Origin: an uncultured Ruminococcus sp.
GTDB taxonomy: Bacteria; Bacillota; Clostridia; Oscillospirales; Acutalibacteraceae
Length of the DNA stretch: 41,321 nucleotides
Assembly (NCBI GenBank): GCA_902798755.1
Contig: CADBYC010000037.1
Span: 1-41,321 of the forward strand
Direction: 5' to 3'
The first letter of the stretch is position 1; each line of letters opens with the position of its first letter. Position numbers and translations under genes: made by a program. The notes under the pieces are model-generated. The model saw only the letters and a program-made list of their open reading frames with translations. It was not told where the DNA came from and did no database searches. Below, in pieces: positions 1-13,344 of this stretch.

Positions 1-810
1 GGAGTAAGAGCCTTCGGGAACGTTGTAGTTCTTGGGATCATAACCCCAGTTGCACTTGATCTGGTTATCGGTCTCGTCGATGGAAGCGAAGTCCTCGACA
101 GGCATGAGCTGTACGCAGTTGACGTTGTGCTCTACGAGATAGTCAACGCAGGAAGCGATCTTGCCCTCGCCGTTGACAGTGGTGTTGCCCTCTGTGAACG
201 CGAGGTACTTGCCGCGGTTAGCTTCGGAAACGCCGGAGGAAACGTCGATGGAGAAATCACGGACGTGGATCTCCCAAACGACTGCCTCGCCGGGGTTGTT
301 GAACAGAACGTGGCTGTCCTGATCCCAGCCTGCGGGGTCGGTGGAGTCAAGGTCAACGACCATGGAGCGGTCGCCGTTAGCGCCGACGCCCTTCGCGTAC
401 GGGTCAACGGTCTCGCTGACAACGCCGTTACGGGTGACGAGGTAGGTGTAATAGGTGTTCTTGAGGTCGCCGGTTTTGGTGAGCGACCAGATACCGGTGG
501 TGCTGTTGTAGGTCATGGCAGAGGTGCCGAGGACGGCAGCTCCTGACTCAGCGTCGGTACCGGTGGTAAACATTTTTACCTGAACAGAGGTAGCTTCGGG
601 AGCCCATACCTTAAAGGTAGTGGCGGTCGGCGTATAGGTTGCACCCAGATCGGTAACCTTAGCTGCCTGTTTGGCGTAGCTCTCGAGATAACTCTGGTTG
701 GAATAACCGGTGCCGGACAGATCCGCCTCAGCGGCAGAAGCCGCTACAGTGAATACTGACATCAGCATCAGTACAGCCAGAGCTACGGAGATAATCCTAC
801 GAATTTTCAT
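1..810 (-). CDS. Secreted type I pullulanase (GH13), N-terminal part, cut by window edge
   Basis: Reading the minus strand from the ATG at 810 gives 270 codons open to the window edge. Residues 1-27 form a classic signal peptide (MKIRRIIS, then a hydrophobic core ending in AASAA), so the enzyme is exported. Residues ~50-150 look like a CBM48/early-set domain (TFKVWAPEATSVQVKMF), followed by VWEIHVRDFSID and the pullulanase signature NWGYDPKNYNVPEGSYS at the very edge. Known for the family: hydrolysis of alpha-1,6 branches in pullulan, starch and limit dextrins. The catalytic residues lie beyond the window. A strong SD (AAAGGAG) precedes the ATG. It is divergent from no neighbour and probably monocistronic here. 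The intracellular glycogen genes further right suggest that imported starch glucose is stored (inference). An amylopullulanase is possible, since the C-terminus is unseen. Confidence 0.9.
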   Translation of the reverse strand, partial: MKIRRIISVALAVLMLMSVFTVAASAAEADLSGTGYSNQSYLESYAKQAAKVTDLGATYTPTATTFKVWAPEATSVQVKMFTTGTDAESGAAVLGTSAMTYNSTTGIWSLTKTGDLKNTYYTYLVTRNGVVSETVDPYAKGVGANGDRSMVVDLDSTDPAGWDQDSHVLFNNPGEAVVWEIHVRDFSIDVSSGVSEANRGKYLAFTEGNTTVNGEGKIASCVDYLVEHNVNCVQLMPVEDFASIDETDNQIKCNWGYDPKNYNVPEGSYS

Positions 811-870
811 GTAATCCTCTCCTTTAAAAAAAGTCGTACTATGGAACAGCATACTATTCCAGTTACAATT

Positions 871-900
871 ATTATAGCATAAGCACAAAAATAAATAAAT
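871..900 (-). promoter_or_regulatory. Probable promoter of the pullulanase gene
   Basis: On the minus strand an extended -10 (TGC TATAAT, hexamer at 871-876) lies about 60 nt upstream of the start codon. The -35 region 17 nt further upstream is only weakly matched (TTTATT). The intervening leader carries the SD. Confidence 0.5.
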
Positions 901-1041
901 GAAAAAGCTGAGATTTCGCGACGGTTTTTTGCACAATCTTTTTGTCAGTTTTTTGTTAAATCTGACAGTGCAATTCTTTATTTGCACAAAATGCGGGCGG
1001 CTGTTCTATACAAGTCCCATTTATATTTCCCGAAAGCAAAA

Positions 1042-1088: not shown

Positions 1089-2183
1089 TCATTGTATATG
1101 GATAGCGGGGAATCCGACGCCGAAGCCCGTACCGAGGGTCACGCAGACGGAGTTGTCGACGTCAGCGAAATATAAGGCGGACGCGGTGCTGTCATGTACG
1201 AGCCTCACCTTGATATCCCGATGCAGCTCGCCCGAGAGATCGTCCTCGAGCACCTTGGCGTAATCGGAGTCGATCGCGCACAGCTTGGCGTAGCCGCCGC
1301 GCTTGTCGTTGAGGATCCCGTTGTGGGTATAATTCGCGATACTGATCAGCACGGTATCGCTCAGCGGTGCGCCGTTCAGCCCGATCCGATAAGAGGACGC
1401 GATCGTTTTGACAAGATAGCGGTGCAGGGCGATGGCGTTATCGCGCTTCTCCCCTTCTGAGTCAAAGCGGCTCTGCATATAGAGGGAACGCAGGCTCTCC
1501 TGCGGCAAAAACTCCGCAATCTCCCCTCCCCTCTTGCCGATGACGGCGCGCTTGATACCCGTATGACCGAGATCCATCACGAGCGACACGGTATCGTCCT
1601 CCATCAGTCTTTGGGCAACGCCCATCATGCCGATGTAGGTGCCGTTGTCAAACAGCATGATATCATACGGCTTGACGCGGGCGCGGTCAAAAATATCGAG
1701 GATATACTCCTTGAACCGTCTGCCGAGCATGGAGCTGGCAAGACCGCCTGTCAGGATCACGGTATCGAGCGAGCGCCAGAACTCCCAGCAGTCGTCGTCC
1801 CAGTCGCCGCGCGCGTCACGGTTCTCCCTCTCCCCTGTTTTCAGGGTCAGGAAGATCAGCCCGAGACGGTTGCCGAATCTCTTCACCACCTTCTCCGCCA
1901 TCTGACGGTAACGCGCGTTGTCACAGGTCAGCGAACGGTCGAGCAATTGAGGAAGCGTATGATCGGGCTCGTTTCTCAGATCGATCCCGTAGTGTAACGA
2001 TGCACGGCGGATCTCGTCAACGATCGCGGGGGTGGAAAAGACCTGCTGAAAGGTCAGCCCCTCGATACCGTCCTCGATACCGTAGAGCGGGAGCTTTTTG
2101 AGCACGCCGCGGTTGAGCGAACAGCGGGCGGTCAGGTATTCTGTTTTATCGACAGGAGATACGGAAAGAAAGGGATTTTTCAT
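1089..2183 (-). CDS. ASKHA/ROK-like kinase-fold protein with circularly permuted motif order
   Basis: 364 residues from the ATG at 2183. A longer frame to a TTG at 2243 would translate a dispersed-repeat remnant, so it was not used. Three ASKHA-superfamily motifs are visible. VILTGGLASS (~142-151), followed by DNGTYIGMMGVA (~179-190), resembles the adenosine motif and the 'DAGLIGAA' end of ROK kinases. DLGHTGIKRAVIG (204-216) resembles phosphate-1. HDSTASAL (330-337) plus VTLGTGFGVGF (348-358), at the extreme C-terminus, resembles the catalytic-Asp/phosphate-2 region. In ordinary ROK kinases the order is phosphate-1, catalytic Asp/phosphate-2, adenosine; here the last block comes first. A sugar or small-molecule kinase is a reasonable guess, but substrate and activity are unknown. 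It lies 69 nt after the second ABC permease and is probably co-transcribed. Confidence 0.6.
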   Translation of the reverse strand: MKNPFLSVSPVDKTEYLTARCSLNRGVLKKLPLYGIEDGIEGLTFQQVFSTPAIVDEIRRASLHYGIDLRNEPDHTLPQLLDRSLTCDNARYRQMAEKVVKRFGNRLGLIFLTLKTGERENRDARGDWDDDCWEFWRSLDTVILTGGLASSMLGRRFKEYILDIFDRARVKPYDIMLFDNGTYIGMMGVAQRLMEDDTVSLVMDLGHTGIKRAVIGKRGGEIAEFLPQESLRSLYMQSRFDSEGEKRDNAIALHRYLVKTIASSYRIGLNGAPLSDTVLISIANYTHNGILNDKRGGYAKLCAIDSDYAKVLEDDLSGELHRDIKVRLVHDSTASALYFADVDNSVCVTLGTGFGVGFPAIHIQ

Positions 2184-2252: not shown

Positions 2253-3044
2253 TTATGACCCCGCCGATTCATAGGCGTTCAGCCCCTTGTGCCAAACAAA
2301 CAGCGCGAGCGCGAACATCACCGTGCCCGCGATCACCGTACCGCCGATACAGAACAGCGGGTTCTCTCCCGTGAGAAAGTAGCTCGCGGGGAAATACGCG
2401 GTAAAGGCGAAGGGGATCACATAGGTGATGATGGTCTGCACCGCCTTATTATATATAGAAACGGGATATTTGGCGAAGTCGTTCGCCATATACAGCATAT
2501 GGGTGATATGACCGCTCGCCTTTGTCCAGAACGAGATCGCGGAGGTCATGATCTTCAAGGAAGTATAGATCAGAGTCGCGAAGATCACGACGACGATCAA
2601 CAGCGGTATCGTGTACCAGTGGAACGGCAGATTCAGCTTGGGGATAGAATAGCCGAGCAGCAGCGCGCAGGTCAATATCTCGCCGAACGCGTCGACGCAG
2701 AAATTCTCCGCGATCACATGATAGAGCGTGTTGATCGGTCGGGTGAGGTACTTGTCGAACTCACCCTTGCGGATAATGCGATAGCCGACCATCCACAGGT
2801 TATCGGTGAAAAGGTGATCGAGCGATTTGGCGATCAGCGAAAAGCCATATATAAATAGTATCTGAGGAAAGGTGTAGCCGATCAGGGCGGGGATCTGACT
2901 GAAGATGATCCCGAGGAACATAATCTGTATCGCCTGCGTCAACAGCAGACCGATCGCGCCGAGCAGGAAATCGACCTTGTATTCCATCAGCTTTTTCAGA
3001 TACTGAGCGATAAAGATACGGTGGAGCCGAAAATATCTTCTCAT
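2253..3044 (-). CDS. ABC-2 type transporter permease (second of pair)
   Basis: 263 residues with about six hydrophobic membrane segments (for example FLLGAIGLLLTQAIQIMFLG, VIAGTVMFALALFVW) and the sequence style of the DUF990/COG3694 permeases that pair with COG4587 permeases and COG4586 ATPases. The conserved segment GYRIIRKGEFDKYLTRPIN sits in the cytoplasmic loop. It starts four bases after the stop of the first permease gene, so translation is probably coupled. Together the three proteins would form an exporter in the cytoplasmic membrane. Relatives have been linked to export of toxic cations or drugs (viologen-type exporters), but the substrate cannot be read from this sequence. Confidence 0.85.
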   Translation of the reverse strand: MRRYFRLHRIFIAQYLKKLMEYKVDFLLGAIGLLLTQAIQIMFLGIIFSQIPALIGYTFPQILFIYGFSLIAKSLDHLFTDNLWMVGYRIIRKGEFDKYLTRPINTLYHVIAENFCVDAFGEILTCALLLGYSIPKLNLPFHWYTIPLLIVVVIFATLIYTSLKIMTSAISFWTKASGHITHMLYMANDFAKYPVSIYNKAVQTIITYVIPFAFTAYFPASYFLTGENPLFCIGGTVIAGTVMFALALFVWHKGLNAYESAGS

Positions 3045-3048
3045 ATGA

Positions 3049-3876
3049 TCAGCCCCCTTGTATCGCCAGGTGCTTGACGGCGCTGCGCCAGATCAGCTTG
3101 GTCACGCCGTACATCGTGAACAGCCAAAAAATCTGTAAGCCGAAGCTAAACAGGATCTGCGACGTCGAATACATGCCCATGTAGATCATAACGGGCGTAT
3201 ATGAGAGCGAAGCGAACGGCAGGAGATTGAGCACCTGCGCGAGTCCCGAGGGCAGAAACGCCAGCGGTACGATAGCGCCCGACAGGAAGCCGACGACCGT
3301 TTCTTTGATCAGGGTGGTGCCCCACAGGTTCTTGAAGAAAAACGCCATAAAGCCGTAGCATACATTAAAGTAAAAGGAGATCATATACGCGAACAGCAGG
3401 CTGAGGATATATAATAGGAAATAGCCGATCTGGAATCGGACGGAGCCGCTGACGGCGTAGCGGTAGATCTCCACGCCCGCGACCATCGGGACGAAGATCA
3501 TCGACACCGAGATAAGGCGGCTGCCAAGCTCCTGAAACAGAAAGCACATCTCAAAGGAGCAGGGGCGGATCATGCGCATGGCGATAGAGCCGTCGATGAT
3601 CTCCTCTCCCACGGCAAAGGAGCCGTCGGAGTAGGTCAGATAGCCCGTCAGAAAGGTGATGAACAGATACACCACCATATCCTCCATCGTAAATCCCATG
3701 AAGGTCTCGCTGTCGGAGCTTAGAAAGACCGCCTTCCAGACAAAGTACATGATGAACGCCGAGAGGATCTCGCCGATCAGAAAGCAGATGAAGTTCGCGC
3801 GGTAGGCGATCATTTCCTGCATACCCGCGCGGGTAAAAGGACGGTAGGTACGGAAGAAGCGCTTGATCCTGCTCAT
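3049..3876 (-). CDS. ABC-2 type transporter permease (first of pair)
   Basis: 275 residues with about six transmembrane segments. The cytoplasmic stretch VGEEIIDGSIAMRMIRPCSF aligns in position and style with the loop of the partner permease (G...D..L.RPIN), as expected for COG4587/COG3694 paralogues. It overlaps the ATPase gene by four bases (ATGA, 3873-3876) and is followed by the second permease after four bases. This tight packing supports one heteromeric exporter (ATPase dimer plus two different permeases). Confidence 0.85.
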   Translation of the reverse strand: MSRIKRFFRTYRPFTRAGMQEMIAYRANFICFLIGEILSAFIMYFVWKAVFLSSDSETFMGFTMEDMVVYLFITFLTGYLTYSDGSFAVGEEIIDGSIAMRMIRPCSFEMCFLFQELGSRLISVSMIFVPMVAGVEIYRYAVSGSVRFQIGYFLLYILSLLFAYMISFYFNVCYGFMAFFFKNLWGTTLIKETVVGFLSGAIVPLAFLPSGLAQVLNLLPFASLSYTPVMIYMGMYSTSQILFSFGLQIFWLFTMYGVTKLIWRSAVKHLAIQGG

Positions 3877-4889
3877 AGGCTCACCTCGCGGCGGTACAGG
3901 CGCTTGATGATCTCCTCGATCTCGACGTCCTTGATGTTCAGATCCTTCACGTGGACGGTCGAGAGCGTATAGGAAATGATGTCCTCCACGCTCACCTTGG
4001 CGGTATCAAAGCGCACGGTCGCCTTCGCGCCGTCACGCTCCGAGGCCAGTTCGTCCTGCGTCAGCTTAAAGCGGCGGTGATAATCGAGCAGCTTGAAATC
4101 GGGCGCGTTGACCAGCTCGAATTCGAGCGTGCGAACGTCGCCGAAATTATGCTTCAATTCCGCGATACCGCCGTCAAATACCTTTTTGCCCTTGTCGATC
4201 ATCACGATACGCTCGCAGAGAAATTCGATATCGGCGAGGTCGTGGGTGGTCAGGATAACAGTCGTGCCCTCCTCCGCGTTGATCTTGCGGATCGCGTTGC
4301 GGATATTCTCTTTGACGACGACGTCGAGACCGATCGTAGGCTCGTCGAGGAACAGCACCTTCGGCGAGTGGAGCAGCGACGCGGCAATATCGGCGCGCAT
4401 ACGCTGACCGAGCGACAGGGTACGGACAGGGCTTGTGATGAAGCTGTCAAGCTCCAATACCTCGTTGAGAAACGCCATGCGCTTCTTATACTGCTCGTCG
4501 GGCACCTGATAGATCTCCTTCAATACAGCATAGGTCTCCCTTAAAGCGAGATCCCACCACAGCTGAGTGCGCTGACCGAAAACGACGCCGATCTCACGGA
4601 CATAGTTCTTTCTGTCCTTCTGCGGGTTCTGACCGTTGATACGGCACATGCCCGAGGTGGGCATGAGGATACCCGTCAGCATTTTGATAACAGTGCTCTT
4701 GCCCGCGCCGTTCGGCCCTAAAAAGCCGAGGATCTCACCCTTCGGCACCGTGAACGAAATATCATCAACAGCGGTGATGATCTCCTTCTTCGGCTTGAAC
4801 AGCGCTTTGACAGAGCCTTTCAGTCCCGGCTCCTTGATGATCTTCTTGAATTCCTTGCGCAGATTCTCTACGTAAATCATGTTTTCCAT
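3873..4889 (-). CDS. ABC transporter ATP-binding protein (COG4586-type)
   Basis: 338 residues. The Walker A motif is GPNGAGKST, the ABC signature region is LSLGQRMRADIA, Walker B is VLFLDEPTIGLD, and the H-loop is LTTHD. The N-terminal insertion between the first strand and Walker A (IIKEPGLKGSVKALFKPKKE) is characteristic of the COG4586 group that pairs with the two permease types seen downstream. The C-terminal ~90 residues form an accessory domain. The start at 4889 follows a promoter closely; a second ATG (MIYVEN, three codons in) is possible because neither has a strong SD. It would energise export by the neighbouring permeases at the cytoplasmic membrane. Confidence 0.9.
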   Translation of the reverse strand: MENMIYVENLRKEFKKIIKEPGLKGSVKALFKPKKEIITAVDDISFTVPKGEILGFLGPNGAGKSTVIKMLTGILMPTSGMCRINGQNPQKDRKNYVREIGVVFGQRTQLWWDLALRETYAVLKEIYQVPDEQYKKRMAFLNEVLELDSFITSPVRTLSLGQRMRADIAASLLHSPKVLFLDEPTIGLDVVVKENIRNAIRKINAEEGTTVILTTHDLADIEFLCERIVMIDKGKKVFDGGIAELKHNFGDVRTLEFELVNAPDFKLLDYHRRFKLTQDELASERDGAKATVRFDTAKVSVEDIISYTLSTVHVKDLNIKDVEIEEIIKRLYRREVSL

Positions 4890-8658: not shown

Positions 8659-8775
8659 AGAGTTGTATATTTATGTACTGTTTTATATGTTTGGCGTTCT
8701 GCGGGGGGACTTTTCACGCGGGACACAACCATCTAATAAATGTACGAATTCTTTACCGTAAAGGAGAGTCAGATT

Positions 8776-10914
8776 ATGAATTATGTTTTAAACGACGAGA
8801 GATTCCCTCTTGATCTGTTCCACGGCGGCGACGCGGTACGTATTTACGATTTCCTCGGCGCTCACGACTTCTGGATGGACGGCGTACAGGGAACCATGTT
8901 CCGCGTATGGGCGCCCAACGCCCTGAGCGTTTCCGTTGTCGGCGACTTCAACGGATGGGATCAGAACGCGAACCACATGCACAAGATTTCCGAAGGCGGC
9001 GTTTGGGAGGTTTGGATCCCCAACCTCGGCGAGACCGCGATCTACAAGTACTGTGTAGAGACCCCGTGGTTTGAGAAGATCCTCAAGTCCGATCCCTTCG
9101 CGTTCCATACCCAGACCCGTCCCGACAACGCTTCCATCATCTACAACTACAACAAGTACCAGTGGAACGACGAGGCGTGGTACAAGTATAAGATGGAGCA
9201 CAATCACTTTGAGAGTCCCATCAACATCTACGAGGTTCACGCAGGCTCCTGGAGAAAGTATGCCGACGGCAATACCTTCGATTACAACAAGCTCGCTGAC
9301 GAGCTGATCCCCTATGTCAAGGAAATGGGCTACACCCACATCGAGTTCATGCCCATGACCGAGTATCCGTTCGACGGCTCCTGGGGCTATCAGGTAACAG
9401 GCTACTTTGCTCCCACCTCCCGCTACGGCTCTCCCGAAATGTTCATGCACTTTATCGACCAGTGCCATCAGGAAGGCATCGGCGTTATCCTTGACTGGGT
9501 ACCCGCTCACTTCCCCAAGGACGCTCACGGTCTGGCCCGCTTCGACGGTATCCACTGCTATGAGTATGAGGATTCCCGCAAGGGCGAGCACAAGGAATGG
9601 GGCACCTACGTATTCGACTACGCGCGCTACGAAGTTATCTCCTTCCTCGTATCCAGTGCTATGTTCTGGCTCGACAAGTATCACGTAGACGGTATCCGTG
9701 TTGACGCGGTCGCTTCCATGCTGTACCTCGACTACAACCGCCGCGACGGCGAGTGGGTAGCCAACAAGTACGGCGGTCACGAGCACCTTGAGGCGGTAGA
9801 GTTCATTCAGAGACTGAACACCGCCGTTCACCTGCATCACCCGACCGTTATGATGATCGCCGAAGAGTCCACCTCCTGGCCAATGGTATCCCGCCCCGTA
9901 TCCGACGGCGGTCTCGGCTTCGACTACAAGTGGAACATGGGCTGGATGAACGACATGCTCTCCTACATGTCCCTCGACCCGCTGTGGAGACCCTATCATC
10001 ATAACTCTATCACCTTCTCCTTCCTCTATGCGTTCTCCGAGAACTTCCTGCTGCCGATCTCTCACGACGAGGTCGTATACGGCAAGGGCTCTCTGATCAA
10101 TAAGATGCCCGGCGATTATGATATGAAGTTCGCGGGCGTACGCGTATTCATGAGCTACATGATGGCTCACCCGGGCAAGAAGCTCACCTTCATGGGCGCT
10201 GAGATCGGTCAGTTCGACGAGTGGAACTCCACCGAAGAGCTGCAGTGGGGTCTGCTGGGCTTTGAGAAGCACAAGAAGCTCAACGACTTCTTCCGCGCGC
10301 TCAACGAGTTCTATAAGGACAACACCTGCATGTATCAGGTCGACTTCACATGGGAAGGCTTCAACTGGATCCATCACGACGACTATCAGCAGAGCGTTAT
10401 CGCGTTCCGCCGTATTGACAAAGAAGGCAACAACGTCATCGTCGTCTGCAACTTCCAGCCCATGTACCGCGAGAACTACGCGATCGGCGTTCCCGACTTC
10501 GGCGTCTACGGCGAGGTATTCAACTCCGACGACGAGCAGTGGGGCGGCACCGGTAAAACGAACGGCACCGAGATCCATACCGTCGCCGAAGAGATGCACG
10601 GCTTTGATCAGGCGATCTACCTCAACCTGCCTCCGATGAGCGCTCTGTACCTCAAGCTGATGAAGAAGGAAAAGAGCCCCAAGGAGATCGCCGCGGAGGA
10701 GAAGGCTGCAAAGCGCAAGGAAGCCGCCAAGAAGGCTGCCGCTACCCGCGCCGCGAAGAAGGCCGCGAAGGCGACCGACGCGAAGAAGGCTGAAAAGCCC
10801 GCTGAGAAGAAGCCCGCCGCGAAGAAGCCCGCTGAGAAGAAGCCCGCCGCGAAGAAGCCCGCCGCGAAGAACGCTCCGGCTAAGAAAGCTCCCGCAAAAA
10901 AAGAAAGAAGATAA
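8776..10914 (+). CDS. glgB: 1,4-alpha-glucan branching enzyme with histone-H1-like C-terminal tail
   Basis: 712 residues from the ATG at 8776, which has AAAGGAG just upstream; an ATG at 8740 lacks a comparable SD. An N-terminal CBM48 (FRVWAPNALSVSVVGDFNGWD) precedes a GH13_9 barrel with the catalytic Asp in GIRVDAVASM (D310), the acid Glu in IAEEST (E363) and LPISHDEVV (D431). It makes alpha-1,6 branches in glycogen in the cytosol. The family core ends near residue 630 (PPMSALYLKLM). The remaining ~80 residues are an unusual Lys/Ala/Pro/Glu tail with units such as KPAAKKPAEKK, strongly basic and low in complexity, like histone H1 or bacterial H1-like proteins. It heads the operon glgB-glgC-glgD-glgA. 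Confidence 0.96.
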   Translation: MNYVLNDERFPLDLFHGGDAVRIYDFLGAHDFWMDGVQGTMFRVWAPNALSVSVVGDFNGWDQNANHMHKISEGGVWEVWIPNLGETAIYKYCVETPWFEKILKSDPFAFHTQTRPDNASIIYNYNKYQWNDEAWYKYKMEHNHFESPINIYEVHAGSWRKYADGNTFDYNKLADELIPYVKEMGYTHIEFMPMTEYPFDGSWGYQVTGYFAPTSRYGSPEMFMHFIDQCHQEGIGVILDWVPAHFPKDAHGLARFDGIHCYEYEDSRKGEHKEWGTYVFDYARYEVISFLVSSAMFWLDKYHVDGIRVDAVASMLYLDYNRRDGEWVANKYGGHEHLEAVEFIQRLNTAVHLHHPTVMMIAEESTSWPMVSRPVSDGGLGFDYKWNMGWMNDMLSYMSLDPLWRPYHHNSITFSFLYAFSENFLLPISHDEVVYGKGSLINKMPGDYDMKFAGVRVFMSYMMAHPGKKLTFMGAEIGQFDEWNSTEELQWGLLGFEKHKKLNDFFRALNEFYKDNTCMYQVDFTWEGFNWIHHDDYQQSVIAFRRIDKEGNNVIVVCNFQPMYRENYAIGVPDFGVYGEVFNSDDEQWGGTGKTNGTEIHTVAEEMHGFDQAIYLNLPPMSALYLKLMKKEKSPKEIAAEEKAAKRKEAAKKAAATRAAKKAAKATDAKKAEKPAEKKPAAKKPAEKKPAAKKPAAKNAPAKKAPAKKERR

Positions 10915-10930
10915 ATAATCCGGCTTGATC

Positions 10931-11007
10931 CGTCATCACAAAGTCCGTATCGGACGATGACGTTCACATTCAATAACTAACATCCGTGCCCCGATTTTTT
11001 CGGGGCA
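10931..11007 (+). other. Two hairpins in the glgB-glgC spacer
   Basis: Hairpin 1 is a nested stem: CGTCATC (10931-10937) with GATGACG (10956-10962), and GTCCG (10943-10947) with CGGAC (10951-10955). Hairpin 2 pairs TGCCCCG (10987-10993) with CGGGGCA (11001-11007). Only a distant, broken T-run follows, so they fit an RNA processing or stability element better than a full terminator (inference). Confidence 0.5.
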
Positions 11008-11032
11008 TGGGTCAGATTTTTGGAGGAAACAA

Positions 11033-12229
11033 ATGATACCTAAGAAAGAAGTAGTGGCGATGCTCTTAGCAGGCGGTCAGGGCTCACGTCTCGGCGTGCT
11101 GACCAAGAAGATCGCTAAGCCCGCTGTTCCCTTCGGAGGCAAGTACAGGATCATCGACTTCCCGCTGTCGAACTGTATCAATTCCGGCATCGAGGCTGTC
11201 GGCGTACTGACCCAGTATCAGCCGCTCGAGCTGAACGAATACGTCGGCAACGGTCAGCCGTGGGATCTTGACGGCATCCACTCCGGCGTCACCTGCTTAC
11301 AGCCTTACGAATCCAAGGAAGGCTCCGACTGGTATTCCGGCACCGCTAACGCTATTTATCAGAACATCGGCTTCGTAGACCGCTACGATCCCGACTACAT
11401 CGTCGTTCTGTCCGGCGACCACATCTACAAGATGGATTACGCCGCCATGATCGAATATCACAAAGAGAAGAACGCCGCCTGCACCATCGCCGCCATGGAC
11501 GTGCCGATGGAAGAGGCTTCGCGCTTCGGTATTCTCAATACCAACGACGACAACACCATTTACGAATTTGAAGAAAAGCCCGAGCACCCGAAGAGCACCA
11601 ACGCTTCGATGGGCATTTACGTTTTCACGTGGAAAACCGTCAGAGAGTATCTGATCAAGGACGCCGCGAACCCCGATTCTCACAACGACTTCGGCAAGGA
11701 CGTCCTGCCCCTGATGCTGAACTCCGGCGAGAAGATGGTCGCCTATCCGTTTGAGGGCTACTGGAAGGACGTCGGCACCATCGACAGCCTGTGGGAAGCG
11801 AACATGGACCTGCTCGATCCCAAGGTCACCCTCGATCTCAAGAACATCTACTCCCGCAACCCGATGATGCCCCCGCATCACATCGGACCCACCGGCGAGA
11901 TCCAGAACTCCATGGTCTCCGACGGCTGCAACATTGACGGCAAGCTCGAGTTCTCCATCATCTTCCCGGGCGTTATCATCGGCAAGGACGCTGTCATCAA
12001 CTCGTCTATCCTCTTCCCCGGCGTAGTCGTGGAGGACGGCGCTCACGTTGAATTCTCCATCATTGCGGAGAACACCGTCATCGGCAAGAACGCCAAGGTC
12101 GGCGCGGCTCCCACCGAAATGGAGAACCGTGACGACTGGGGCATCACCGTCGTCGGCAACGACCTAAAGATCGGCGAAGGCGTGACCGTCCCCTGCAAAG
12201 CAATGATCGATAAGGATATGGAGGTGTAA
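11033..12229 (+). CDS. glgC: Glucose-1-phosphate adenylyltransferase, catalytic subunit
   Basis: 398 residues. The nucleotidyltransferase start [16 protein letters not shown] contains the GGxGxRL loop, followed by [20 protein letters not shown] and [12 protein letters not shown]. The C-terminal half has left-handed beta-helix hexapeptide repeats ([26 protein letters not shown]). It makes ADP-glucose, the donor for glycogen synthase, from ATP and glucose-1-phosphate in the cytosol. The SD GGAGG is nine bases upstream. The next gene, glgD, starts two bases after its stop. In Firmicutes GlgC usually works as a heteromer with GlgD. Confidence 0.97.
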
Positions 12230-12231
12230 GC

Positions 12232-13344
12232 ATGGCTAACAACAGAGTATTAGGTATGATTTTTGCGAATACTAATGAAAAGAACCTGCCCGAGTTGACC
12301 GCTTACCGTACCACCGGCTCCGTTCCTTTCGGCGGAAAATACCGTCTGATCGACTTCCCGCTTTCCAATATGTCCAACTCCGGCATCAACAACGTCGGTA
12401 TCGTCGCGAAATCGAACTTCATGTCCCTGATGGATCATGTCGGTTCGGGCTCCGCGTGGGATCTCGCCCGCCGCAGAAGCGGTCTGAGCATCCTGCCCCC
12501 TTACGGCGAGCACAGCTTCGCGTCACTGGTCGAGACCATCTTCAACCTGCACGGCTACATCGAGCACGGCGACGAGGATTATATCCTGATCTCCCCCTCC
12601 GACTGCGTTCATAACATGGATTACAGCAAGATCCTGCGCTTTGCCGAGAAGAATCATTCCGACATCACCTTCGTCTACACCAAGCGCGTCGTCAAGGAGA
12701 TCACCGACGACTTCCGCTGTCTGCTGAACGTTGACGAGAACGGCAAGGTCACGAAGATCATGGCGTCTCCCGTTGACGACAGTGTATCGAACCTCACCAT
12801 CGGCGTTATGCTGATGAAAAAGACCGTGCTCATGGCGCTGGTTCGCCAGGCGATGAGCGAGTCAAAATACAGCTTTGTCCGCGACGTTCTGCAAAAGTCG
12901 CTCGACCGCCACAGAGTCTACGCCTACGAGCTCGAGGGCTACTGCGAGATCATCGGCTCCGTCAAGGAGTACTATGACGCGAACATGAAGATCATGGATC
13001 GCGATACCCGCTACAAGCTGTTCAACTATCAGCGCCCGATCTACACCAAGGTGCGCGACGACGCTCCCTCCCGCTACGGCTTGAACTGTAACGTCAAGGA
13101 TTCGCTGATCGCTCAGGGCTGTGTGATCAACGGTATCGTCGAGAATTCCATCATCTCTAAGGGCGTTTACATCGGTCACGACGCGGTCATCAAGAACTGC
13201 ATCATCATGCAGGACTGCATCATCGGCGACAAGGCGGAGCTGACCAACTTAGTCGTAGACAAGGACGTTAACGTGTCCCGCGGCTCCAAGATCCAGGGCA
13301 CCGTCAACTATCCGATGTATATCGCAAAGCGTTCCATCGTATAA
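12232..13344 (+). CDS. glgD: GlgD, non-catalytic partner of ADP-glucose pyrophosphorylase
   Basis: 370 residues, clearly paralogous to GlgC ([34 protein letters not shown]-terminal hexapeptide helix with GVYIGHDAVIKNCIIMQDCIIG). It lacks the GGxGxRL nucleotide loop; the N-terminus reads MIFANTNEKNLPELTAYRTTG instead. DCV replaces the GDHI of GlgC. This fits the known role of GlgD as a helper subunit that raises GlgC activity in Firmicutes. Its SD (GGAGGTG) overlaps the last codons of glgC, so the two are probably translated in step. A block of dispersed repeats separates it from glgA. Confidence 0.95.
   Translation: MANNRVLGMIFANTNEKNLPELTAYRTTGSVPFGGKYRLIDFPLSNMSNSGINNVGIVAKSNFMSLMDHVGSGSAWDLARRRSGLSILPPYGEHSFASLVETIFNLHGYIEHGDEDYILISPSDCVHNMDYSKILRFAEKNHSDITFVYTKRVVKEITDDFRCLLNVDENGKVTKIMASPVDDSVSNLTIGVMLMKKTVLMALVRQAMSESKYSFVRDVLQKSLDRHRVYAYELEGYCEIIGSVKEYYDANMKIMDRDTRYKLFNYQRPIYTKVRDDAPSRYGLNCNVKDSLIAQGCVINGIVENSIISKGVYIGHDAVIKNCIIMQDCIIGDKAELTNLVVDKDVNVSRGSKIQGTVNYPMYIAKRSIV

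Follow-up and report, generated by a model that had tools for sequence, protein, structure and literature searches.

A small clostridial protein family that probably arose by circular permutation of a ROK-type kinase

The window, by which we mean the whole 41,321-nucleotide stretch of DNA analysed, contains a gene whose predicted protein resembles ROK kinases with its two halves in swapped order. This gene lies between the start of a CBM48-bearing enzyme gene, whose product is probably a secreted starch-degrading enzyme, and a set of ABC transporter genes. The features of the locus, with the evidence for each, are the following:

1..987, minus strand: start of the CBM48-bearing enzyme gene, next downstream, cut by the window edge (Pfam CBM_48, E 2.1e-13)
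1089..2183, minus strand: whole gene of the candidate circularly permuted ROK-like protein, 364 amino acids plus stop (translation; full-length homologues share the order and have similar ends)
1110..1199, minus strand: catalytic-Asp and phosphate-2 block, residues 329-358, aligned with ROK NDAN...ITLGTGVGGGI
1548..1580, minus strand: phosphate-1-like loop VMDLGHTGIKR, residues 202-212, aligned with the ROK DLGGTN loop
1587..1610, minus strand: putative linker between the former ROK C- and N-termini, residues 192-199 (ROK/family alignment)
1611..1766, minus strand: adenosine-like block TVILTGGLASS ... DNGTYIGMMGVAQ, residues 140-191, aligned with the ROK C-terminal GGG...GAA block
1611..2183, minus strand: equivalent of the ROK C-terminal half, here N-terminal, residues 1-191 (hhalign, 44-191 against ROK 181-315)
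1767..1832, minus strand: insert (about 19 residues) bearing two conserved tryptophans, within residues 118-139 (gap in the ROK alignment)
2253..3044, minus strand: ABC-2 permease (PF06182), next gene upstream (Pfam E 3.3e-61)
3049..3876, minus strand: ABC-2 permease (PF06182; Pfam E 4.6e-21)
3873..4889, minus strand: ABC transporter ATPase (Pfam E 1.1e-30)

In the translation of the window ORF, the gene runs from an ATG at 2183 to a stop at 1089-1091, and its start, stop, length of 364 residues and conserved ends indicate a real open reading frame. The initial annotation had described an adenosine, phosphate-1, phosphate-2 order of motifs, and their positions are as claimed: VILTGG occupies residues 142-147, DNGTYIGMMGVA residues 179-190, DLGHTG residues 204-209, HDSTASAL residues 330-337 and VTLGTGFGVGF residues 348-358 of 364. 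The protein stops six residues past this last block. Its Pfam match to ROK is sub-threshold (E 0.032; 14.2 bits against a curated cut-off of 22.9) and places residues 289-358 on profile positions 66-138 of 294, which pairs the end of this protein with the middle of ROK. NCBIfam gave no match to the window protein at E up to 10.

We next determined how widespread such proteins were. Full-length homologues occurred at eight loci in genome contigs (71-82% identity) and in 22 of 98 related genomes, the own genome counted, with identities down to 42%. Searches at family, order, class and phylum level found them in 11 of 200, 7 of 394, 3 of 391 and 1 of 398 genomes, respectively; these sets overlap, the own genome is counted in each, and it is the only one found at phylum level. 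A second family of the order contained four genomes with a full-length homologue among 87, all four in one genus, and a third family one among four. The last class search, which used the widest profile, returned 21 of 278 at E up to 0.1, comprising two strong matches (the own genome and G170) and 19 weak ones with E of at least 0.0017. Judging from the homologue counts across these searches, the distribution is patchy. No relative was confirmed in the viral contigs searched. The homologues L001-L008, four of which come from goat or roe deer gut, are labelled Ruminococcus sp., Clostridia, Clostridiales or 'bacterium'.

Removing L005, which has an in-frame stop, and three exact duplicates from 40 loci left 36 sequences, and the addition of four distant sequences gave 40 distinct members; every 40-member count below takes in the window's own protein. 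This set spans several genera and three bacterial families, with a lowest identity to the window protein of 27%. A homologue search had been proposed as a check on whether the motif order is conserved, and it is: all 40 members used have the same block order. Their proteins are 346-373 amino acids long and end 5 to 31 residues past the phosphate-2 block (n = 40). Within the scope of our searches, this is a small uncharacterised protein family of Clostridia. The L005 copy (L005:5001-6092), which stems from a metagenome assembly, carries an in-frame TAG.

Gene neighbourhoods were counted at 36 loci (the window and 35 others, leaving out L005 and the four distant loci). In 23 of these the gene next upstream, on the same strand, belongs to a permease cluster; a GH13-type starch-enzyme cluster likewise supplies the next gene downstream on the same strand in 23, and both neighbours are found together in 18. 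The downstream contig edge was reached in two of the 36 loci, and a PF06182-type permease is absent from the examined stretch in 12. None of the four most distant loci shows an adjoining permease by eye, two of these four being only about 3 kb long. The ABC exporter operon of the initial annotation thus exists in the window, with its two PF06182 permeases and ABC ATPase, but it is not a constant of the family, and for this reason the setting does not identify the substrate. Neighbours of more distant members include radical SAM, YqfD and YabP family genes, a phosphate propanoyltransferase, or genes on the opposite strand.

Where the downstream gene is complete, it encodes CBM48, GH13, dockerin and CBM26 domains (L073) or GH13 and CBM26 domains (L095). 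The L073 starch enzyme (L073:7209-11384) combines its dockerin with several CBM26 modules, as in amylosome enzymes. By our own reading, the window further contains a GlgB-type enzyme and two GlgC/GlgD-type nucleotidyl-transferase genes at 8740-13344, and GlgB- and GlgC-like genes also lie near L092 and L093. Between the permuted gene and the GlgB/GlgC-like genes of L092 is a gene for a 390-residue protein (L092:4353-5522) without a Pfam match at E 1e-5, and a relative occupies the same spot in L093. We considered alpha-glucan metabolism as a clue to the substrate and dropped it, as the starch-enzyme neighbour is not constant (23/36). In two genomes of one genus, a phosphate propanoyltransferase gene follows 78-91 bases downstream on the same strand (L096:4881-5447 and L097:6661-7245), identified by PF06130 in L096 and as a cluster mate in L097. 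This neighbour might hint at an acyl substrate; it is not constant either, and a reading of the family as acyl kinases was likewise dropped.

Conservation across the family shows that the motifs did not arise by chance. Identical in all 40 members are N24, W133, G146, G147, G154, D204, G206, K211, L253, S281, A283, Y298, K300, H330, D331, A334, G351, G357 and F358, and L148 is kept in 39. Both catalytic-type aspartates, D204 and D331, are among the identical residues; D331 corresponds to the catalytic Asp ahead of phosphate 2 that is one criterion for ROK, and it is the presumed general base. T208 and G355 were seemingly invariant in the 36-member set, whereas the 40-member set shows exceptions: T208 is threonine in 37 and serine in three members, and G355 is glycine in 36 and serine in four, all from a distant genus (L150, L151, L156 and L157). 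The phosphate-2 loop is therefore slightly less strict than first apparent. The same four members have lost R106, and T352 is serine in two of 40. The Trp-bearing insert, which directly precedes the adenosine block and is missing from the ROK set in the alignment, contributes W133 and W128, the latter kept in 39 of 40 members.

Two motifs of normal ROKs are lacking. In ROK, a family that also includes repressors, CxCGxxGC binds zinc and ExGH binds the sugar; the zinc motif defines the family, being typical rather than universal. We found CxCGxxGC in none of the 40 family members versus 34 of 41 normal ROKs, and ExGH (pattern E.GH) in none versus 36 of 41.

Single-sequence searches gave little signal for ROK. 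The window protein matched Pfam ROK at E 0.032 in native order and 0.031 when rotated, and four other members had no match in the single-sequence Pfam scan in either form. A PDB search with one sequence and the family HMMER profiles A1 (an alignment of 25 of 30 loci) and A5 found no ROK. We instead compared the family profile, using hhalign, with a profile of normal-order ROK genes from the same bacterial order (41 sequences, Neff 5.1). In native order, the 40-sequence family profile aligned as two separate blocks, residues 201-359 with ROK 5-146 (P 1.2e-8) and residues 44-191 with ROK 181-315 (P 6.5e-4). The 36-sequence profile behaved in the same way (201-358 with ROK 5-145, P 2e-7; separately 45-191 with ROK 182-315, P 2.5e-3). 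Residues 1-43 had no reliable alignment to ROK. On its own, the C-terminal half matched the normal ROK profile at P 2.9e-8 (36 sequences) or 1.6e-9 (40 sequences).

When the 40-sequence profile was rotated by 190-202 positions (start residues 191-203), the two blocks became a single alignment of 284-287 columns, with scores of 82.6-83.8 and P of 6e-11 to 9e-11. Starting near residue 197, the alignment had 287 columns and scored 83.5 versus 67.8 in native order, and the remaining rotations tried scored at most 73.9. The rotated profile spans ROK 4-315 (P 6.6e-11), that is, homology across both lobes. With 36 sequences rotated to 197, 287 columns joined residues 5-359 with ROK 5-315 (score 66.3 versus 59.1), and the rotation scan had its sole peak at 192-202. 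As controls, nine distant normal ROKs rotated likewise scored highest unrotated, and reversed halves gave no signal in hhalign against ROK. A sequential alignment to a known non-permuted family had been named as one result that would count against permutation; the halves instead align in swapped order, and rotation yields one end-to-end alignment.

The same comparison locates the cut. The ROK alignment leaves off at residue 191 (ROK 315) and resumes at residues 200-201 (ROK 4-5), so the old termini would be bridged by about eight residues; in normal ROKs the termini are near enough in space for such joining. ROK 145-146, the end of the GTGxGGGI strand, falls on residues 358-359 of a chain that ends at 364, which would put the new termini in the hairpin after the phosphate-2 strand and agrees with the earlier remark that the protein ends where phosphate-2 ends. 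What computation establishes is that the gene is real, that its ends and block order are conserved and that both halves resemble ROK. At the sequence level, this profile-profile comparison supports the circular permutation first suggested from the motifs, and we consider it very likely that the protein is a permuted ROK-like protein. The best explanation overall, and a likely one, is that circular permutation of a ROK-type (ASKHA-fold) kinase gave rise to the family, whose fold is predicted. Among the papers listed by our literature searches, none described circular permutation in an ASKHA or ROK protein, which is weak evidence as few subscription papers were covered. PMC1079889 states in general terms that topologies inside one kinase fold group may be circular permutations of each other, and in PMC7701253 the term 'circularly permuted' refers to an ATP-grasp protein.

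Several weak stray matches of the family profile point in the same direction. Its C-terminal block matched positions 88-143, 91-137 and 103-143 of ORFs of 521, 281 and 311 amino acids, and its middle block, family residues 139-196, matched positions 300-359 of a 369-residue ORF. We read these ORFs as normal ROKs, matched where a permutation would predict. Thirteen of the weak class-search loci were examined by motif reading, of which five appeared to be ROK-type with normal order (L160, L163, L168, L169 and L170), with matches at the positions expected from a permutation, and eight chance-like. Among the best sub-threshold family-profile matches was a 477-residue, normal-order ROK-like ORF with a long N-terminal extension (L160:715-2148; E 0.0044), possibly a nearer non-permuted relative. 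An ancestral non-permuted sister family was looked for as well; the candidates were weak profile matches alone, none of them convincing.

From its sequence, the window protein is most likely an ATP-dependent small-molecule kinase. Its two lobes would assemble as in an ordinary ROK kinase, with the phosphate-1 loop (D204, G206, T208) and the phosphate-2 loop (G351-G357) holding MgATP and the adenosine block (residues 140-191) holding the base and ribose. Upon cleft closure, D331 would activate a hydroxyl of the small substrate for phosphoryl transfer. Neither the zinc site nor ExGH is present, and H330 stands in place of the N of NDAN; an ordinary free hexose, bound as in ROK, is therefore an improbable substrate.

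Between an ATP-dependent kinase and a non-catalytic sensor we lean modestly towards the kinase, a preference that was marginally firmer before the serine at G355 was seen in four of 40 members. The permuted ROK-like fold might instead be no kinase at all and serve as a nucleotide- or sugar-binding sensor or regulator, in which the cleft closes without phosphoryl transfer. ROK proteins include repressors (PMC4856308), and such a role would be consistent with the absence of the ExGH and zinc residues from all 40 members, with the G355 substitutions and with a gene context that differs among lineages. However, all 40 members have D204, D331, G351 and G357, as retained catalysis would predict, and the two halves take up all the space in the ORF, with no DNA-binding domain detected by Pfam in the window protein. 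We regard a sensor as somewhat unlikely.

A permuted family derived from an ASKHA lineage other than ROK is a less likely possibility. Our comparison covered ROK, BadF-type proteins and a single Glk sequence, and the missing zinc and ExGH motifs would suit such an origin. Against it, the best native-order P was 2e-7 for ROK versus 0.011 for the BadF-type, and ROK was the Pfam family matched by most members: 10 of 25 had weak matches (best E 0.023), followed by Lipoprotein_21 with seven of 25 (best E 0.095), all of them sub-threshold. In a wider set, two of nine members had weak Pfam ROK matches (best E 0.026).

Could the protein be a domain fusion, in which residues 197-364 alone form ASKHA lobe I, preceded by an unrelated helical domain whose adenosine-like block is due to chance? 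The signal of the N-terminal half is indeed the weaker one (P 2.1e-4 alone). Against a narrow profile built from 29 close ROK sequences, the C block still gave P 1.8e-5 and the N block P 0.3; the N-half match therefore requires a ROK profile of sufficient diversity. Structure models add little: AlphaFold reached a pLDDT of 42 for the full length, with an input of eight sequences (the others 71-82% identical to the window protein), and a pLDDT of 55.6 and pTM of 0.53 for residues 1-199. By our reading, the model of residues 1-199 resembles the ROK C-terminal half in its order of helices and strands. Neither low-confidence model had a Foldseek match at E 0.001 or better; at E of about 0.8-4 the search listed exopolyphosphatases, glucokinase, PilM, ParM, MreB and DnaK for the full length, and hexokinases 1bdg and 6jj4 and sugar kinase 8ow7 for the N-terminal half, in both cases amid unrelated proteins. 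These matches were not used because model confidence was low, and for the same reason the fold is one we infer.

Conversely, the N-terminal half alone scored 35.2 with 40 sequences, whereas 100 column shuffles reached at most 22.3; with 36 sequences it scored 31.1 against the ROK C-terminal half, versus a shuffle maximum of 22.0 in 100. It lies in register on ROK 181-315, GGG and GAA ends included. Once it was appended behind the C-terminal half, the two formed one collinear alignment with a score of 83.5 instead of 66.5, and none of 100 shuffled N-halves placed behind the true C-half reached the observed 66.3, by a narrow margin (maximum 65.3). The adenosine block also falls, weakly, on the C-terminal end of BadF-type proteins, and the 369-residue ORF, read as a normal ROK, is matched near its C-terminus by family residues 139-196. 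A fusion thus seems very improbable. The chance that a wrong start, a frameshift, an assembly join or a truncated neighbour merely mimics the swapped order is negligible: the named genomes are metagenome assemblies and L005 has its in-frame stop, but forty distinct sequences share the order and similar ends, the stop-to-stop frame exceeds the protein by no more than 34 codons in 22 relatives, by 31 in L034 and L035 and by 47 at most (L157), which leaves no room for a missing lobe, and the same genome has a separate normal-order ROK gene (G000:C46).

The most far-reaching interpretation, which we hold to be fairly probable, is a natural, evolutionarily fixed permutation of the ASKHA fold. In such a family lobe II would precede lobe I in forming the ATP cleft, the chain would open in the phosphate-2 hairpin, and the protein would have adapted to a substrate not bound by ROK kinases. 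Few ATP-using folds are as old as that of the ASKHA proteins (hexokinases, actin, Hsp70), whose hinge motion relies on the connection between the two lobes. If the permutation is true, a rewired family would reveal which links the hinge needs and would offer a natural test of folding order. The persistence of the swap in several genera suggests that so ancient a fold can be opened and rejoined at another place. Permutation would also account for the missed annotation, with no Pfam match above cut-off and no NCBIfam match, and the family may conceal a new small-molecule kinase of gut and rumen starch degraders.

Among known systems, ROK (PF00480; bacterial glucokinases, NagK, NanK and NagC/Mlc-type repressors) is the closest, as both halves of the family align to it, including phosphate-1, NDxx/phosphate-2, the helices and the adenosine block. 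The family differs from ROK by its swapped halves, the Trp insert of about 19 residues, the loss of CxCGxxGC and ExGH, and a similarity below the Pfam cut-off; it departs from the ROK order of phosphate 1, phosphate 2, lobe II and adenosine. One full-length Glk sequence (PF02685) gave no clear signal. The BadF/BadG/BcrA/BcrD ATPases (PF01869) show a weak likeness in their phosphate-1 and adenosine blocks, and here too the order is permuted (199-217 with 10-28 and 140-195 with 219-265; P 0.011 and 0.08), a far weaker match than that to ROK. The family has all three nucleotide-binding motifs of the ASKHA superfamily, phosphate-1, phosphate-2 and adenosine, allowing for the four members with serine at G355; these motifs and their roles are described in PMC1079889. 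Their order in the normal ROKs compared is phosphate 1, phosphate 2, adenosine, whereas in this family it is adenosine, phosphate 1, phosphate 2.
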